This document shows, piece after piece, positions 5,714-36,735 of a DNA stretch of 39,695 nt. The position numbers were made by a program, and so were the translations under genes. Positions within the stretch are counted from its first letter, which is position 1; each line of letters starts with the position of its first letter. The DNA is from Desulfurobacteriaceae bacterium. GTDB taxonomy: Bacteria > Aquificota > Aquificia > Desulfurobacteriales > Desulfurobacteriaceae. The stretch is from assembly GCA_039832905.1 (NCBI GenBank), contig JBDOLX010000036.1:1-39695 (forward strand), given 5' to 3'. The notes beneath the pieces are model-generated. The model was not told the DNA's origin. It ran no database searches and worked only from the letters and a program-made list of their open reading frames with translations.

Positions 5714-6065
5714 TGGTGGAGGTGGCGGGATTCGAACCCGCGTCCGGAGATGCGGCTCAGGTAGCTTCTACAGGCTTAGCCCGTGTTTTGGCTTCTCGCT
5801 CTGAGGTTAGCCCACGGGCAGGCGCCCCAGATCCAGCCCTCTTAAATCTCGGCTGTTCCCCGAGGGCAAGGGATACAGCCCAGCCCGTCTCTTTGTCGCC
5901 CTACCTGGAGCCGACAGGCGAAACCCCAGGGGACGTCGCCGCGTTAATTAGGCGGCGAGAGCGAGTTCTTCGTTGGCAGCTATTTTGAGCGCCTTTTTTA
6001 CGAGGTTGGCTCCTCGGCCTGCCGCTACCTAAGCCATTGCATCCCCGTCGAAACCATTCACCCCC
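5714..6065 (-). ncRNA. ssrA: Transfer-messenger RNA (tmRNA)
   Basis: Read on the minus strand, the RNA starts GGGGGUGAAUGGUUUCGACGG and ends with a T-arm (GGUUCGAAUCCCGCC) and the genome-encoded CCA at 5714-5716. The 5' GGGGGUG (6059-6065) pairs with CACCUCC (5718-5724) to form the acceptor stem. tmRNA with SmpB rescues stalled ribosomes and tags the nascent protein for proteolysis. The tag frame reads ANEELALAA from GCC 5975-5977 to TAA 5948-5950; an alternative resume codon GCU at 5978-5980 would add one Ala. Length is 352 bases in one piece. Its 3' end lies one base from the stop of the convergent dsbC-like gene. A protein frame on the plus strand across it is spurious. Confidence 0.97.
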
Positions 6066-32414: not shown

Positions 32415-32810
32415 ATGGAAAACCTTAAAGGTAAGATTGTTTTTATTCAGACAGCTGGAGGTGAAAGCGTTATTCCTTCTTCAGGAATTATTGGCATTTT
32501 GGAAGAAATAGGAGAGGACTACCTTAAAATCAAAGATGCCGGCGTTTTTGCCCTTTTACCGACAACTAAGGGAGCACAGGCAACAATTATGCCTCTTGAT
32601 CCAACAGCAAACGAACCAGTAGAAGCTTACATTATGAAATCTCAGGTAGTTTCTGTTGTTCCTGTTGGAGATAGATCCAAGTTAAAAGAGTTTCACCAAC
32701 AGTTTAAAGCAGCAGCTGCCGGGATAGAACTTGCAACTCCAGGTTCCATAGACCTTTCTAAGATTAAAGAGTTTCCTAAAGGAGGAAAAGGAGGACTTTC
32801 CATTACATGA
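32415..32810 (+). CDS. Unrecognised small protein, Sm-like beta-barrel suspected
   Basis: Encodes 131 residues that I do not recognise. Residues 4-85 look like a small beta-barrel: LKGKIVFIQT, then GIIGILEEIGEDYLKIKDAG, a loop with TTKGAQATIMPLDPTANEPV, then EAYIMKSQVVSVVPV. Strand order and the LEEIGEDYLKIKDAG hairpin recall Sm/Hfq or SH3-like barrels. The rest (about 86-131) is a helix followed by a Gly/Lys-rich, probably flexible tail. GAGGAGG precedes the ATG. Its stop overlaps the ntrB start (ATGA), so it is made together with the two-component pair. There is no signal peptide. Confidence 0.6.
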   Translation: MENLKGKIVFIQTAGGESVIPSSGIIGILEEIGEDYLKIKDAGVFALLPTTKGAQATIMPLDPTANEPVEAYIMKSQVVSVVPVGDRSKLKEFHQQFKAAAAGIELATPGSIDLSKIKEFPKGGKGGLSIT

Positions 32811-33808
32811 AAATAGAGGATCTTCTCTTTTCCCTTCCCCTTCCTGTTGCCCTCACCGACGGGGAAGGGAGAATATCTTACGTCAACCAAAAAATGGAAA
32901 GTTTCTTAAATAGATCCCTAAAATACTTAAAAGATAGAAAACTTTCAGAATTTTTCAAAAACAAAAAGGATATAGAAGAACAAATAAAAAAGTCCTATAC
33001 AGAACTTCTTGAAATTTTCGGTTTTAAGGACAACGGTCATTATTTAACTTTCGCTCCTTTGTACATTTCTTCTAAGGTTGAAGGAGTTATTGTTATAGTC
33101 CAGCAAGATACTAGCCCTTTTGAAAAAGATATTACCCTTTTCTTGAAAGGAATTTCTCACGAAATAAGAAACCCTTTAGGAGGCATTAAAGGGGCAGCTA
33201 AACTTTTATCTACACTAAAAAGTTATGATAAAGAATTGGTCTCTGTAATCCTTGAAGAAACAGAAAGAATAGAAAGGTTTCTAGACAATATTGTAAAAGC
33301 TTTTGACTTTTCCAAACTGAGCTTTTCAAGAAGAAATATCCACGAAATCATTCAAAGTGTCGTAAAACTTTTTGAACACGAAATAAAGAGGCACAAAGTC
33401 AAAGTTGTTTACAATTTTGACCCTTCTTTACCTGAGATTTTGTTAGATTCAGACAAAATTACTCAGGCAATAATAAACATCTTTAAGAACGCTTTAGAGT
33501 CCCTTACCGATGCTAAAGATAAATTGATAAGAATAGAAACCGGTTATGCTATTCAACCGTCAGGATTTATTTTCATTAGGATAGCAGATACAGGCTGTGG
33601 AATGGACGAAGAAGAACTTAAGAACTTTTTCCTGCCGTTTTTTACAACTAAGGAAAAAGGAACTGGACTTGGAACTTTTATTGCTAATGAGATAGTAAAA
33701 GGACATGGTGGAGAACTAAAAGTTAAAAGTGAAAAAAATGTTGGAACAGAAATAACAATTTTCTTACCAATGAGAAGGAACGATGGCAAAGATTTTAATA
33801 GCAGATGA
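32807..33808 (+). CDS. ntrB: NtrB-type PAS sensor histidine kinase
   Basis: Encodes 333 residues with no membrane segment, so it is a cytoplasmic sensor. A PAS domain covers about 5-105 (PLPVALTDGEGRISYVNQKM). The phosphorylated His118 is in GISHEIRNPLGGIKGAAKLL, the NtrB-type H box. The ATPase domain has IFKNALESL (N box), ADTGCGM (G1) and TKEKGTGLGTFIA (F/G2). It phosphorylates the NtrC-type regulator encoded directly downstream, whose start it overlaps by 26 bases. Its signal may be nitrogen status, but the PAS domain alone does not prove that, and no glnB/glnA lies here. Confidence 0.9.
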   Translation: MKIEDLLFSLPLPVALTDGEGRISYVNQKMESFLNRSLKYLKDRKLSEFFKNKKDIEEQIKKSYTELLEIFGFKDNGHYLTFAPLYISSKVEGVIVIVQQDTSPFEKDITLFLKGISHEIRNPLGGIKGAAKLLSTLKSYDKELVSVILEETERIERFLDNIVKAFDFSKLSFSRRNIHEIIQSVVKLFEHEIKRHKVKVVYNFDPSLPEILLDSDKITQAIINIFKNALESLTDAKDKLIRIETGYAIQPSGFIFIRIADTGCGMDEEELKNFFLPFFTTKEKGTGLGTFIANEIVKGHGGELKVKSEKNVGTEITIFLPMRRNDGKDFNSR

Positions 33809-35132
33809 CGAAAAAAGTATAAGAGTCGTCCTAAGAAAATTTCTAACATCGCTGGGACACAAAGTTGTAGAAGCAGAAGATGGCGAAAAAGCTTTGGAAA
33901 TTTTAAGGGAAGAAAAACTGGACTTAGCTTTTGTTGACATAAGAATGCCAAAGTTAAGCGGGCTTCAAATTCTTGACAAAGTGAAGGATGTTCCGGTAGT
34001 AATGCTAACGGCTTACGGCACAATGGATTACACAGTTCAAGCTATTGAAAAAGGAGCAGTTGAATATATTACAAAACCTTTTTCTTTGGAAGAGATAAAA
34101 GAACTTCTTGAAAGAATTTTGTCTTGTCATGAGAAAGAGGAAGAAGAAAACATAGAAGGGCAAGATGAAATTGTTGGAACAAGCAAGAAGATGCAAGAGG
34201 TTTTTAAGTTTATAGGAAGAGTTGCTAAAAGTGATGCAACAGTTCTAATCTTAGGAGAAAGTGGCACGGGAAAAGAACTTATCGCAAGAGCTATCCATAG
34301 GTATTCGAATAGAAAAGATAAACCTTTTGTTGCTGTAAACTGTGCAGCTTTACCTTCAAATCTTCTTGAAGCAGAGCTTTTTGGCTACGAGAAGGGAGCT
34401 TTCACTGGAGCGTTTTCAACAAAGAAAGGGCTTTTTGAGCAAGCTAACGGTGGAACGATATTTTTAGACGAAATAGGAGAATTGGAGCTTTCTTTACAGT
34501 CAAAACTTTTAAGAGTTTTGCAAGAAAAAGAGATAAGACGGGTCGGAGGAAATAGAACAATAAAGGTTAATATTAGAGTTATAGCTGCAACAAATAAGGA
34601 TTTAGAAGAAGAGGTAAGAAAAGGAAATTTTAGAGAAGATCTTTACTACAGACTTAACGTAGTAAGTATTTCTTTACCTCCATTAAGAGAGAGAAAAGAG
34701 GATATAATTCCTCTTGCTCAATACTTCATAAGGAAGTTCTCTAAAGAATTTAAACTTCCACTAAAAGAGCTTTCGTCCAAAGCTAGAGATTGGCTCTTAA
34801 ACTATTCCTTTCCGGGAAATGTAAGAGAGCTTGAAAATATGATTCTACGTGCAATGATTCTTTCTCCAGTTGATGTCATAGATGTTGAAGATCTAAAACC
34901 AAATTTAAATGCGAAACCTTCCTTTTCCATCGATGAGGCTATAAGAAGTTGGATAAAGTCTTTGAAAAACGAAAGAAACCTTTACGATATCGTTATCAAA
35001 AAAGTGGAAAAAATCCTAATTTCTGAAACTTTAAAGAAATGCGATTACAATCAAGTTAAAGCCGCGAAGGTGCTTGGTATCCATAGAAATACCTTAAGAA
35101 AGAAAATTAAGGAGTTAGGAATTGAAAGATGA
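33783..35132 (+). CDS. ntrC: NtrC-type sigma-54-dependent response regulator
   Basis: Encodes 449 residues. Receiver domain 1-115 with phospho-acceptor Asp52 (LAFVDIRMPKLSG); AAA+ domain with Walker A GESGTGKE (158-165) and the sigma-54 contact loop GAFTGA (205-210), Walker B GGTIFLDEIGEL; and a Fis-type helix-turn-helix at the C-terminus (VKAAKVLGIHRNTLRKKIKE). It activates sigma-54 promoters when phosphorylated by the upstream kinase. I found no clear TGGCAC-N5-TTGC sigma-54 promoter in the window, so its targets are elsewhere or diverged. The next gene downstream is the polyferredoxin, with its own promoter. Confidence 0.93.
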   Translation: MAKILIADDEKSIRVVLRKFLTSLGHKVVEAEDGEKALEILREEKLDLAFVDIRMPKLSGLQILDKVKDVPVVMLTAYGTMDYTVQAIEKGAVEYITKPFSLEEIKELLERILSCHEKEEEENIEGQDEIVGTSKKMQEVFKFIGRVAKSDATVLILGESGTGKELIARAIHRYSNRKDKPFVAVNCAALPSNLLEAELFGYEKGAFTGAFSTKKGLFEQANGGTIFLDEIGELELSLQSKLLRVLQEKEIRRVGGNRTIKVNIRVIAATNKDLEEEVRKGNFREDLYYRLNVVSISLPPLRERKEDIIPLAQYFIRKFSKEFKLPLKELSSKARDWLLNYSFPGNVRELENMILRAMILSPVDVIDVEDLKPNLNAKPSFSIDEAIRSWIKSLKNERNLYDIVIKKVEKILISETLKKCDYNQVKAAKVLGIHRNTLRKKIKELGIER

Positions 35133-35165
35133 AAATTAATTTTCCTCTATCAGTTTTAATTATAT

Positions 35166-35184
35166 TATCCTTATAATAAGGATA
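35166..35184. promoter_or_regulatory. 19-bp palindrome upstream of the polyferredoxin promoter
   Basis: TATCCTTAT-A-ATAAGGATA is a perfect 9-1-9 inverted repeat, 21 bases ahead of the -35 box at 35206. Its single-base centre and size fit a dimeric regulator operator. A further dyad, GTTAG (35194-35198) and CTAAC (35210-35214), overlaps the -35 box. It is not followed by a U-run, so a terminator for ntrC is unlikely. Confidence 0.55.
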
Positions 35185-35205: not shown

Positions 35206-35234
35206 TTGACTAACCTAAGCATATGACCTATTAT
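35206..35234 (+). promoter_or_regulatory. Sigma-70-type promoter of the polyferredoxin gene
   Basis: TTGACT (35206-35211) and TATTAT (35229-35234) are separated by exactly 17 bases. Transcription would start near 35241, about 15 bases before the ATG at 35257. This gives the gene a transcript separate from ntrBC. Confidence 0.7.
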
Positions 35235-35256: not shown

Positions 35257-35874
35257 ATGAGGAGATGCGAAATATTGGATAAAGTTAAAAGGCAAGTAAT
35301 ACTTTGTCAGGATGGGTCTCCGTTCGTCCCACAGTATCCGGGTGGGATAAACGTTGCAAGATGTAATGGATGTGGCGAGTGTGTAAAGGTTTGTTCTCAA
35401 AACTGCATAGAACTTCAAGAAATTAAAGGAAAGAAAGTAGCAGTTATTGTTTCTCTGGAATACTGTATTGGCGATGGAATGTGTAAACTCGTCTGTCCAA
35501 ACGATGCTTTCTTGTGAGGCTTTAACTGTTCCTCCAGTTTGGAGGACTTAGAAATTAAAGAAGAAGATCTTCTTTCGGATGAGAATGGAAATTATGCTTA
35601 TCTAACTTTTGGAGGGCATCTTTATACTCCAAGTTTCCTGCAAGCAATCGATGTTAAAAGTTGTGAGAAGTGTGAAAAATGTTTAGACATGTGTGAAACC
35701 AGAGACCTTGACAATGAAGGGAATATAATTCCTGCTTTTCCGGAACTTTGCAATGGTTGCAGACACTGTGTCCATGTGTGTTCATCAAAAAGTATAAAAG
35801 CTTCCCCAATTCCCTTGGAAGAAATGATAAAGCGCGTGAGAAAAAGGAAACTAACTACAGATGTTAAACCTTAG
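35257..35874 (+). CDS. Candidate selenocysteine-containing polyferredoxin (in-frame TGA at 35515-35517)
   Basis: Read through one TGA, the frame encodes 205 residues with residue 87 as selenocysteine. Both halves look like FdxB-type ferredoxins. First half: SPFVPQYPGGINVARCNGCG, ligands Cys36, 39, 42, 46, then Cys70-x2-Asp73-x2-Cys76-x3-Cys80-Pro. Second half: LTFGGHLYTPSFLQAID, ligands Cys136, 139, 142, 146 and Cys165, 168, 171, 175. Up to four [4Fe-4S] clusters are expected. After the TGA the same frame continues as GFNCSSSLEDLE without a break. The only in-frame start beyond it is TTG 35539, which has no Shine-Dalgarno, and a SECIS-like hairpin follows the TGA. Alternatives are two separate genes (35257-35517 and 35539-35874), a nonsense mutation or a sequencing error. 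The start may be ATG 35257 or TTG 35275. The end overlaps the convergent gene by 24 bases. Confidence 0.7.
35515..35560 (+). promoter_or_regulatory. SECIS-like stem-loop after the in-frame TGA
   Basis: Counting the U of UGA (35515) as 1, the upper stem UCCUCC (16-21) pairs with GGAGGA (27-32), closing loop AGUUU with G at 23 and U at 24. U15 is bulged and G14 pairs with C33. C12-U13 can pair with A36-G37, and a lower stem CUUUAA (6-11) pairs with UUAAAG (41-46). The Escherichia coli fdhF element likewise has a bulged U at 17 and G23/U24 in the loop that contact SelB. No U-run follows, so it is not a terminator. Confidence 0.65.
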
Positions 35875-36735
35875 CGCCGTAACTTCTATAATCTTGATGA
35901 TGTCTGGATGATCCTGCAAGAAACGTTTCAAACTCTTTAAAGATAAAGGCTTCTTCGGCTTAACCATAATTTCCAAACATTTAGGGTTCTTAATGAAGCT
36001 AATTAACGGATAGGCAATTCTTTCTCTAAAAACTGGATTATTTTCTGCGTTCTTTTCTATAGCTGTGATAAATCTCTCTTTTAGTTCTTCAGGAGTCTTT
36101 CCTTCCTGTCTTGCTTCATATTCTAGAAAAGTTCTTAGAAGACCTAAATCTTTATACTTTAGCGATAAATAAGCAAGTTCTATTTTTCCAATCAAGTATC
36201 TGTTAAGGGTTTTTCCTTTTAAAAATTTTTCCAATCTTTCTCTGGTTAAGTTTTTCAGAGAAACGGATAATTGAAAATTAGCAAGATTTTCAAGGTGGGT
36301 TGTAAGATACGAGAAGAAAATGTCATCTTCAAACAAATAGCCTGCCTGGAAGTCAACTTCTAAAAGATTTTCGGAAAGCCCTAAGGTTTTTAGAAGTCCA
36401 GAAACAACAGGAAAGCCGGGAGGAATTATTAAACCTTCAACATTAACTTTTAGACTTTCTGGAAGTTCTTTCTTTCTCGCAAATAGTGGTAAATCAATGG
36501 TGATTCTCCTTACAAAAAGATCTATACCAAATTCCGAGGTTTTTAGATTCTTGATAACAATTTCATTGGAAAGTAGGTAATAATTTAAATCACTATAGGA
36601 AACCTTTATAGGCAACGTGGAAATTTTTGCATCAAGCTTTTCTTTTATCTTACTTTCAACAAAACTTTCTAAAGCTAAATAGGAAGAAAGGAGAGTAAGA
36701 AGAAAAAAAAGAAAAGTAAAAATCCACCTTGTCAT
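35851..36735 (-). CDS. Signal-anchored periplasmic protein, AsmA/DUF945-like, function unknown
   Basis: Encodes 294 residues. An N-terminal hydrophobic segment (about 3-25, WIFTFLFFLLTLLSSYLALE) anchors or exports it. The following part has the short amphipathic strands and pattern YYLLSNEIVIKNLKTSEFGI seen in AsmA-like and DUF945-like envelope proteins; the C-terminal third is helical. I cannot assign a family with confidence. ATG 36735 has AAGGT upstream. It follows hemE by five bases on the same strand, and its 3' end overlaps the convergent polyferredoxin by 24 bases. A role in the envelope is an inference from the anchor only. Confidence 0.6.
   Translation of the reverse strand: MTRWIFTFLFFLLTLLSSYLALESFVESKIKEKLDAKISTLPIKVSYSDLNYYLLSNEIVIKNLKTSEFGIDLFVRRITIDLPLFARKKELPESLKVNVEGLIIPPGFPVVSGLLKTLGLSENLLEVDFQAGYLFEDDIFFSYLTTHLENLANFQLSVSLKNLTRERLEKFLKGKTLNRYLIGKIELAYLSLKYKDLGLLRTFLEYEARQEGKTPEELKERFITAIEKNAENNPVFRERIAYPLISFIKNPKCLEIMVKPKKPLSLKSLKRFLQDHPDIIKIIEVTALRFNICS

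Follow-up and report, generated by a model that had tools for sequence, protein, structure and literature searches.

Ferredoxins that carry an aspartate in a cluster motif (CxxDxxC), such as Desulfovibrio africanus ferredoxin III and the Pyrococcus furiosus ferredoxin, have a labile or site-differentiated cluster, the fourth iron site being the labile one. In D. africanus ferredoxin III, the incomplete labile cluster binds exogenous thiolate and metals reversibly (PMC13111528). Selenocysteine (Sec) is found in other iron-sulfur proteins: a 2026 inventory lists 119 prokaryotic selenoprotein families and subfamilies, and its iron-sulfur entries include the mercury-methylation ferredoxin HgcB, with the motif GVGU, the multi-cluster PRK07118-type proteins, with a predicted Sec in UxxC, and the heterodisulfide reductase selenoprotein HdrA (PMC13188914).

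The protein considered here is encoded in a 39,695-nt stretch of DNA from a Desulfurobacteriaceae bacterium (the window). Its gene, Sec-polyferredoxin, occupies positions 35257..35874 of the plus strand, from an ATG at 35257 to a TAG at 35872-35874, and specifies 205 amino acids when the in-frame TGA at codon 87 (35515..35517, plus strand) is read as Sec. An earlier note, made from the sequence of the window alone, had described two in-frame ferredoxin-like halves split by a single TGA, with the frame open for 118 codons past it. Re-reading of 35257-35874 confirmed 118 sense codons between the TGA and the TAG, and each half scored above the Pfam cut-off with Fer4-type models (score versus gathering score: PF00037, 50.2/21.1; PF12838, 46.4/27; PF14697, 41.9/35). 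Membership in the 4Fe-4S dicluster ferredoxins, judged by profile score and cluster cysteine motifs, was met.

The protein is built as two 2-cluster modules with 15 conserved ferredoxin cysteine ligand positions plus Asp73. The first module (35362..35496, plus strand) contributes C36, C39, C42 and C46 from one motif and C70, D73, C76 and C80 from the other, along with an extra Cys50; the second (35662..35781, plus strand) contributes C136, C139, C142 and C146, and C165, C168, C171 and C175. Motif 2 of the first module reads C-I-G-D-G-x-C, and in every family member Asp73 takes the place of the second ligand. Cys50, Asp73, Sec87 and Cys91 were invariant, except for a TGA at the Cys50 codon of one doubtful copy. 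The AlphaFold model was mediocre (pLDDT 68.5, below 50 at residues 89-96), and Foldseek returned only generic matches for it (FwdF, HdrA and NuoI-type ferredoxin domains), giving no functional lead.

Comparison with described families placed the protein outside each of them. The best NCBIfam match to the N-terminal half (residues 16-85) was the nif-specific ferredoxin III of the FdxB type (TIGR02936), and the likeness includes the [QR]DGxPxxPQ lead-in, matched by 19/19 members. However, the window protein reached 63.3 bits against an equivalog cut-off of 80.55, so that membership was not met, and it differs from that ferredoxin by the Asp in place of the second Cys of motif 2, the Sec and the second ferredoxin module. 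HgcB (NF040864) is likewise a ferredoxin with a catalogued selenoprotein form, but the score was 26.8 bits against a cut-off of 99, again without membership, and motif, size and context differ. The PRK07118 selenoprotein (NF005503) is similar in being a multi-cluster iron-sulfur protein with a predicted Sec; on the related model NF005504 the window protein scored 30.5 bits where 437 are needed, and it has its own motif, U-G-x-x-C. HdrA (NF040770) also combines iron-sulfur clusters with Sec, and its ferredoxin-like domains align; it is, however, a large flavoprotein, and the score was 31.4 bits against 1100. The D. africanus and P. furiosus ferredoxins share the Asp in the cluster motif, whereas they are single, small and without Sec. 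No entry with the architecture or motif of Sec-polyferredoxin was present in the full 2026 table of 119 (PMC13188914), which bears out the statement in the earlier note that no selenoprotein of such architecture had been described. A prior description was not found in the open literature; subscription papers were not excluded.

The read-through protein was searched for in 136 Aquificota genomes. Nineteen copies were identified in 18 of them, all Desulfurobacteriaceae and representing six genera, and the proteins are 62-71% identical to that of the window. The TGA occupied the identical codon in 19/19 homologues, within the aligned motif CPxDAFL-U-GxxCS; the proposed check of homologues at residue 87 thus gave Sec throughout. 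Among the carriers is Thermovibrio ammonificans, a culturable species with a published proteome (780 proteins from nitrate-grown cells; PMC5441870), in which the predicted peptide across Sec is IVCPEDAFL-U-GLNCSSGSEEVEVNEEELL.

Judging from these sequences, we consider it almost certain that the UGA of the polyferredoxin gene is read as Sec in this deep-sea-vent bacterium and in 17 related genomes. The whole is very probably best explained as an uncatalogued soluble tetra-cluster ferredoxin selenoprotein in which UGA 87 would be decoded as Sec. The suggestion that this was a candidate selenoprotein is therefore supported, by the conserved TGA and by the hairpin, SelA, SelB, SelD and tRNA-Sec described below. 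All of this is sequence evidence, without experimental or protein-level demonstration of Sec insertion. The result is a new selenoprotein family, strongly supported at the sequence level, in a deep-branching chemolithoautotrophic lineage.

No cysteine at the Sec position was found in the 136 Aquificota genomes or in 391 relatives spread over the domain, and a pattern scan covering about 85,000 species also gave none. Such an absence is unusual for selenoproteins, in which Cys forms are usual though not required. Since the protein is Sec-only in every genome in which it was found, it would escape methods based on Sec/Cys pairs, and it is expected to be split into two ferredoxin fragments by automatic annotation.

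Sec87 directly follows the first module and may work together with the module's incomplete cluster, where Asp73 stands for Cys. In the ferredoxin fold, residues past the last cysteine pack back against the module, so that Sec87, Cys50 and Cys91 would lie close enough to reach the Asp73-site cluster. Sec87 could then serve as a selenolate ligand that is open to exchange, or pair with Cys50 or Cys91 in selenolate/thiol redox chemistry; in this way it might couple the one-electron chemistry of the cluster to ligand exchange or to a two-electron reaction of a partner or substrate. This role, like the redox or cluster-ligand site that the earlier note had placed at Sec87, is inferred without measured model distances, and we propose it only tentatively. 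It is also conceivable, though not something we would call probable, that Sec87 and Cys91 (U-x-x-x-C) form a selenenylsulfide switch or a reductase site untied to the Asp cluster, with the clusters only feeding electrons, as in ferredoxin-thioredoxin reductase. The invariance of both residues and their closeness in sequence agree with such a site; however, known Sec redox motifs mostly have the form UxxC or CxxU rather than UxxxC (PMC13188914), and Asp73 and Cys50 are equally invariant.

The role of Sec87 as a ligand of the Asp73 cluster can be extended to an obligate-Sec family, in which the selenolate would be a reversible ligand of the site-differentiated cluster and form a redox-gated Se-Fe switch, ancestral to Desulfurobacteriaceae and without a Cys form because the function needs selenium. 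We regard this extended version, with an endogenous selenolate as the switch of a polyferredoxin, as rather unlikely. With Sec placed beside iron-sulfur clusters, one of them lacking a Cys ligand, a direct test of whether selenolate can ligate a cluster becomes possible, and the protein is small, soluble and available from culturable species.

In the proposed decoding mechanism, SelB and tRNA-Sec would read UGA 87 as Sec under the direction of a downstream hairpin at a distance of 18-19 nt. A SECIS-type hairpin is located at 35530..35546 (plus strand), with the stem TCCTCCA/TGGAGGA (35530-35536 with 35540-35546) and the apical loop GTT (35537-35539). In the transcript, this corresponds to a stem of 7, a GUU loop and a local fold of -10.9 kcal/mol; the loop is spaced 19 nt from the UGA, or 18 nt when the A-U pair is counted into an AGUUU loop. 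Published rules for bSECIS elements specify a loop of 3-9 nt, a stem of 4-16 bp, a spacing of 16-37 nt and a G in the first two loop positions, with the loop pattern N1-G[G/U]-N-N2 (PMC13188914). The window and most members of the family met these constraints, the loop pattern included. In the same family of organisms, SelD and FdhA genes carry hairpins at 17-18 nt with the loops GGUC, AGUU or GGUCU, mostly of the GGUC type.

Pairs were counted on 18 distinct sequences, with 500 shuffles and slid versions as controls. Paired cells made up 94% of the hairpin, and the covariation score exceeded all 500 shuffles and all slid controls. The closing pair was A-U in 8 sequences and G-C in 6, indicating compensatory change, and another pair was C-G in 14 and G-C in 1. 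Codon usage in the stem was restricted as well: Ser92, the first stem serine, was encoded by TCC in 19/19 copies, whereas TCC accounts for 20/140 of the family's other Ser codons. At the aligned +9 position, Glu was specified by GAG wherever it occurred, with neighbouring codons free to vary. The uninterrupted stem was weak in three genomes (G122, G127 and G128; -3.6 to -4.0 kcal/mol), and single-sequence z-scores against synonymous shuffles were modest.

The sel genes that had been suggested as a check were all present in the window genome: SelB (442 bits), SelA (633 bits) and tRNA-Sec (81 bits) exceeded their cut-offs, and SelD was found with one in-frame TGA. Across the 24 genomes of the order, tRNA-Sec was detected in 20, SelB in 20 and SelD in 21; gaps within the family occurred in draft genomes. 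Every carrier in the order had at least one of SelB, SelD and tRNA-Sec, and most had all three. In 21/21 genomes where SelD was found, its own gene had a TGA in frame at the RASG-U position. A Sec-containing FdhA was found in only 2 of the 24 genomes, which leaves Sec-polyferredoxin and SelD as the most widespread recognised selenoproteins here and the main recognised users of Sec in the lineage.

The hairpin and the Sec machinery also bear on the possibility that UGA 87 is read through as Trp, Cys or Arg by a near-cognate tRNA, or at a regulated low level, and not as Sec. Nothing specific favours such readthrough, and it is very unlikely in view of the conserved and suitably spaced SECIS-type hairpin, the co-occurrence of SelA, SelB, SelD and tRNA-Sec, and the use of UGA as a stop elsewhere. 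The last point had been made from rplY and ftsZ, and both genes do end in TGA; three members of the Sec-polyferredoxin family themselves terminate with UGA. As UGA is a normal stop in all of these, general UGA reassignment was ruled out.

A further possibility is that the locus comprises two genes, with an N-terminal ferredoxin ending at the UGA and a second ferredoxin translated separately, for example by termination-reinitiation. A program-made list of open reading frames does give a 111-aa ORF with a TTG start past the UGA; this TTG, however, is at 35539 and falls in the hairpin loop and stem; the earlier note had placed it inside the stem. The accompanying statement that the second half contains no ATG did not hold, as ATGs are present at codon +58 after the UGA and at Met190. 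Both lie only past the point where the second module has its first Cys motif, and neither is conserved across the family. No start of the second half was conserved, and the homologues of four genomes (G118, G129, G135 and G132) had no ATG, GTG or TTG in the 59 codons following the UGA. None of the 19 homologues was divided into two genes that had genuine starts.

The pattern of substitution likewise speaks against separate genes. The terminator at codon 87 was TGA throughout, without a single TAA or TAG among 19 sequences that differ by about 2 substitutions per synonymous site, which is near saturation. The dN/dS ratio (NG86, medians of usable pairs) was 0.106 for the codons before the UGA and 0.104 for those that follow, codon-position identities were equal on either side, and the codons from the UGA to the second module were under the same constraint as those elsewhere in the gene. 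A dN/dS of about 0.10 with equal codon-position identities on both sides indicates that the product is maintained as one protein. Going by the alignment, the conservation of TGA combined with equal purifying selection on both sides is far beyond chance, and we consider two separately translated ferredoxins highly improbable.

A frame-disrupting sequencing error or a pseudogene is a negligible possibility. The draft assembly of the window genome consists of 120 contigs, and one homologous copy (L023) may contain such an error, but 18 independent genomes share the TGA, single-contig and finished-size assemblies included, which excludes a sequencing error, and dN/dS remains about 0.10 after it. 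The finished chromosome of T. ammonificans HB-1 comprises 1,682,965 bp, with more than 4,000-fold Illumina coverage (PMC3570795). The L023 copy (1489-2100), the second one in genome G121, has an extra in-frame TGA in place of the Cys50 codon, which is invariant in all other copies. No SECIS-type hairpin was found after this TGA, and a second Sec at Cys50 was rejected for that reason. The extra TGA is probably an error, a strain variant or a sign of a decaying copy.

Genus g3, represented by four genomes (L134-L137), does not contain Sec-polyferredoxin; its slot is occupied by a leuC-like gene, identified by sequence, and no Cys counterpart was present there. The genus retains SelB, SelD, tRNA-Sec and the upstream kinase-regulator pair. 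In the tree of the regulator, g3 is placed beside the window genome and inside the carriers. This nesting suggests that the Sec-polyferredoxin gene may have been lost in g3, with the reservation that the tree relies on midpoint rooting and the branch is long.

The neighbourhood of the gene is conserved. Immediately upstream in the window is an NtrC-type sigma-54 response regulator (33783..35132, plus strand), preceded by an NtrB-like PAS histidine kinase (32807..33808, plus strand), and this pair was present upstream of Sec-polyferredoxin in 14/15 loci compared, the remaining locus being cut by a contig end. Two further conserved neighbours had no Pfam match: a gene for a 131-aa protein before the histidine kinase (32415-32810), with about 80% identity retained even in g3, and a gene for a 294-aa protein near hemE (35851-36735), convergent with Sec-polyferredoxin.

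A perfect FNR/CRP-type palindrome, TTGAYnnnnRTCAA, was located 84-100 nt before the start in 10/19 loci (L007, L012, L013, L014 and L016-L021), and two further loci had it at 9/10 matches; it was absent upstream of the gene in the window genome. These palindromes hint at control by redox or nitrogen-oxide state, with no partner identified. Such control would be compatible with the nitrate-ammonifying growth described for T. ammonificans (PMC5441870).

In the window, a sigma-70-like promoter, TTGACT-17-TATTAT, precedes the gene (35206..35234, plus strand); it is a consensus match only, and the number of such matches was not above that in shuffled sequences. The gap between the regulator and Sec-polyferredoxin also contains the palindrome ATCCTTATAATAAGGAT at 35162-35184, seen only in the window genome among the loci read. 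Elsewhere in the window, a tmRNA gene is located at 5714-6065 on the minus strand.
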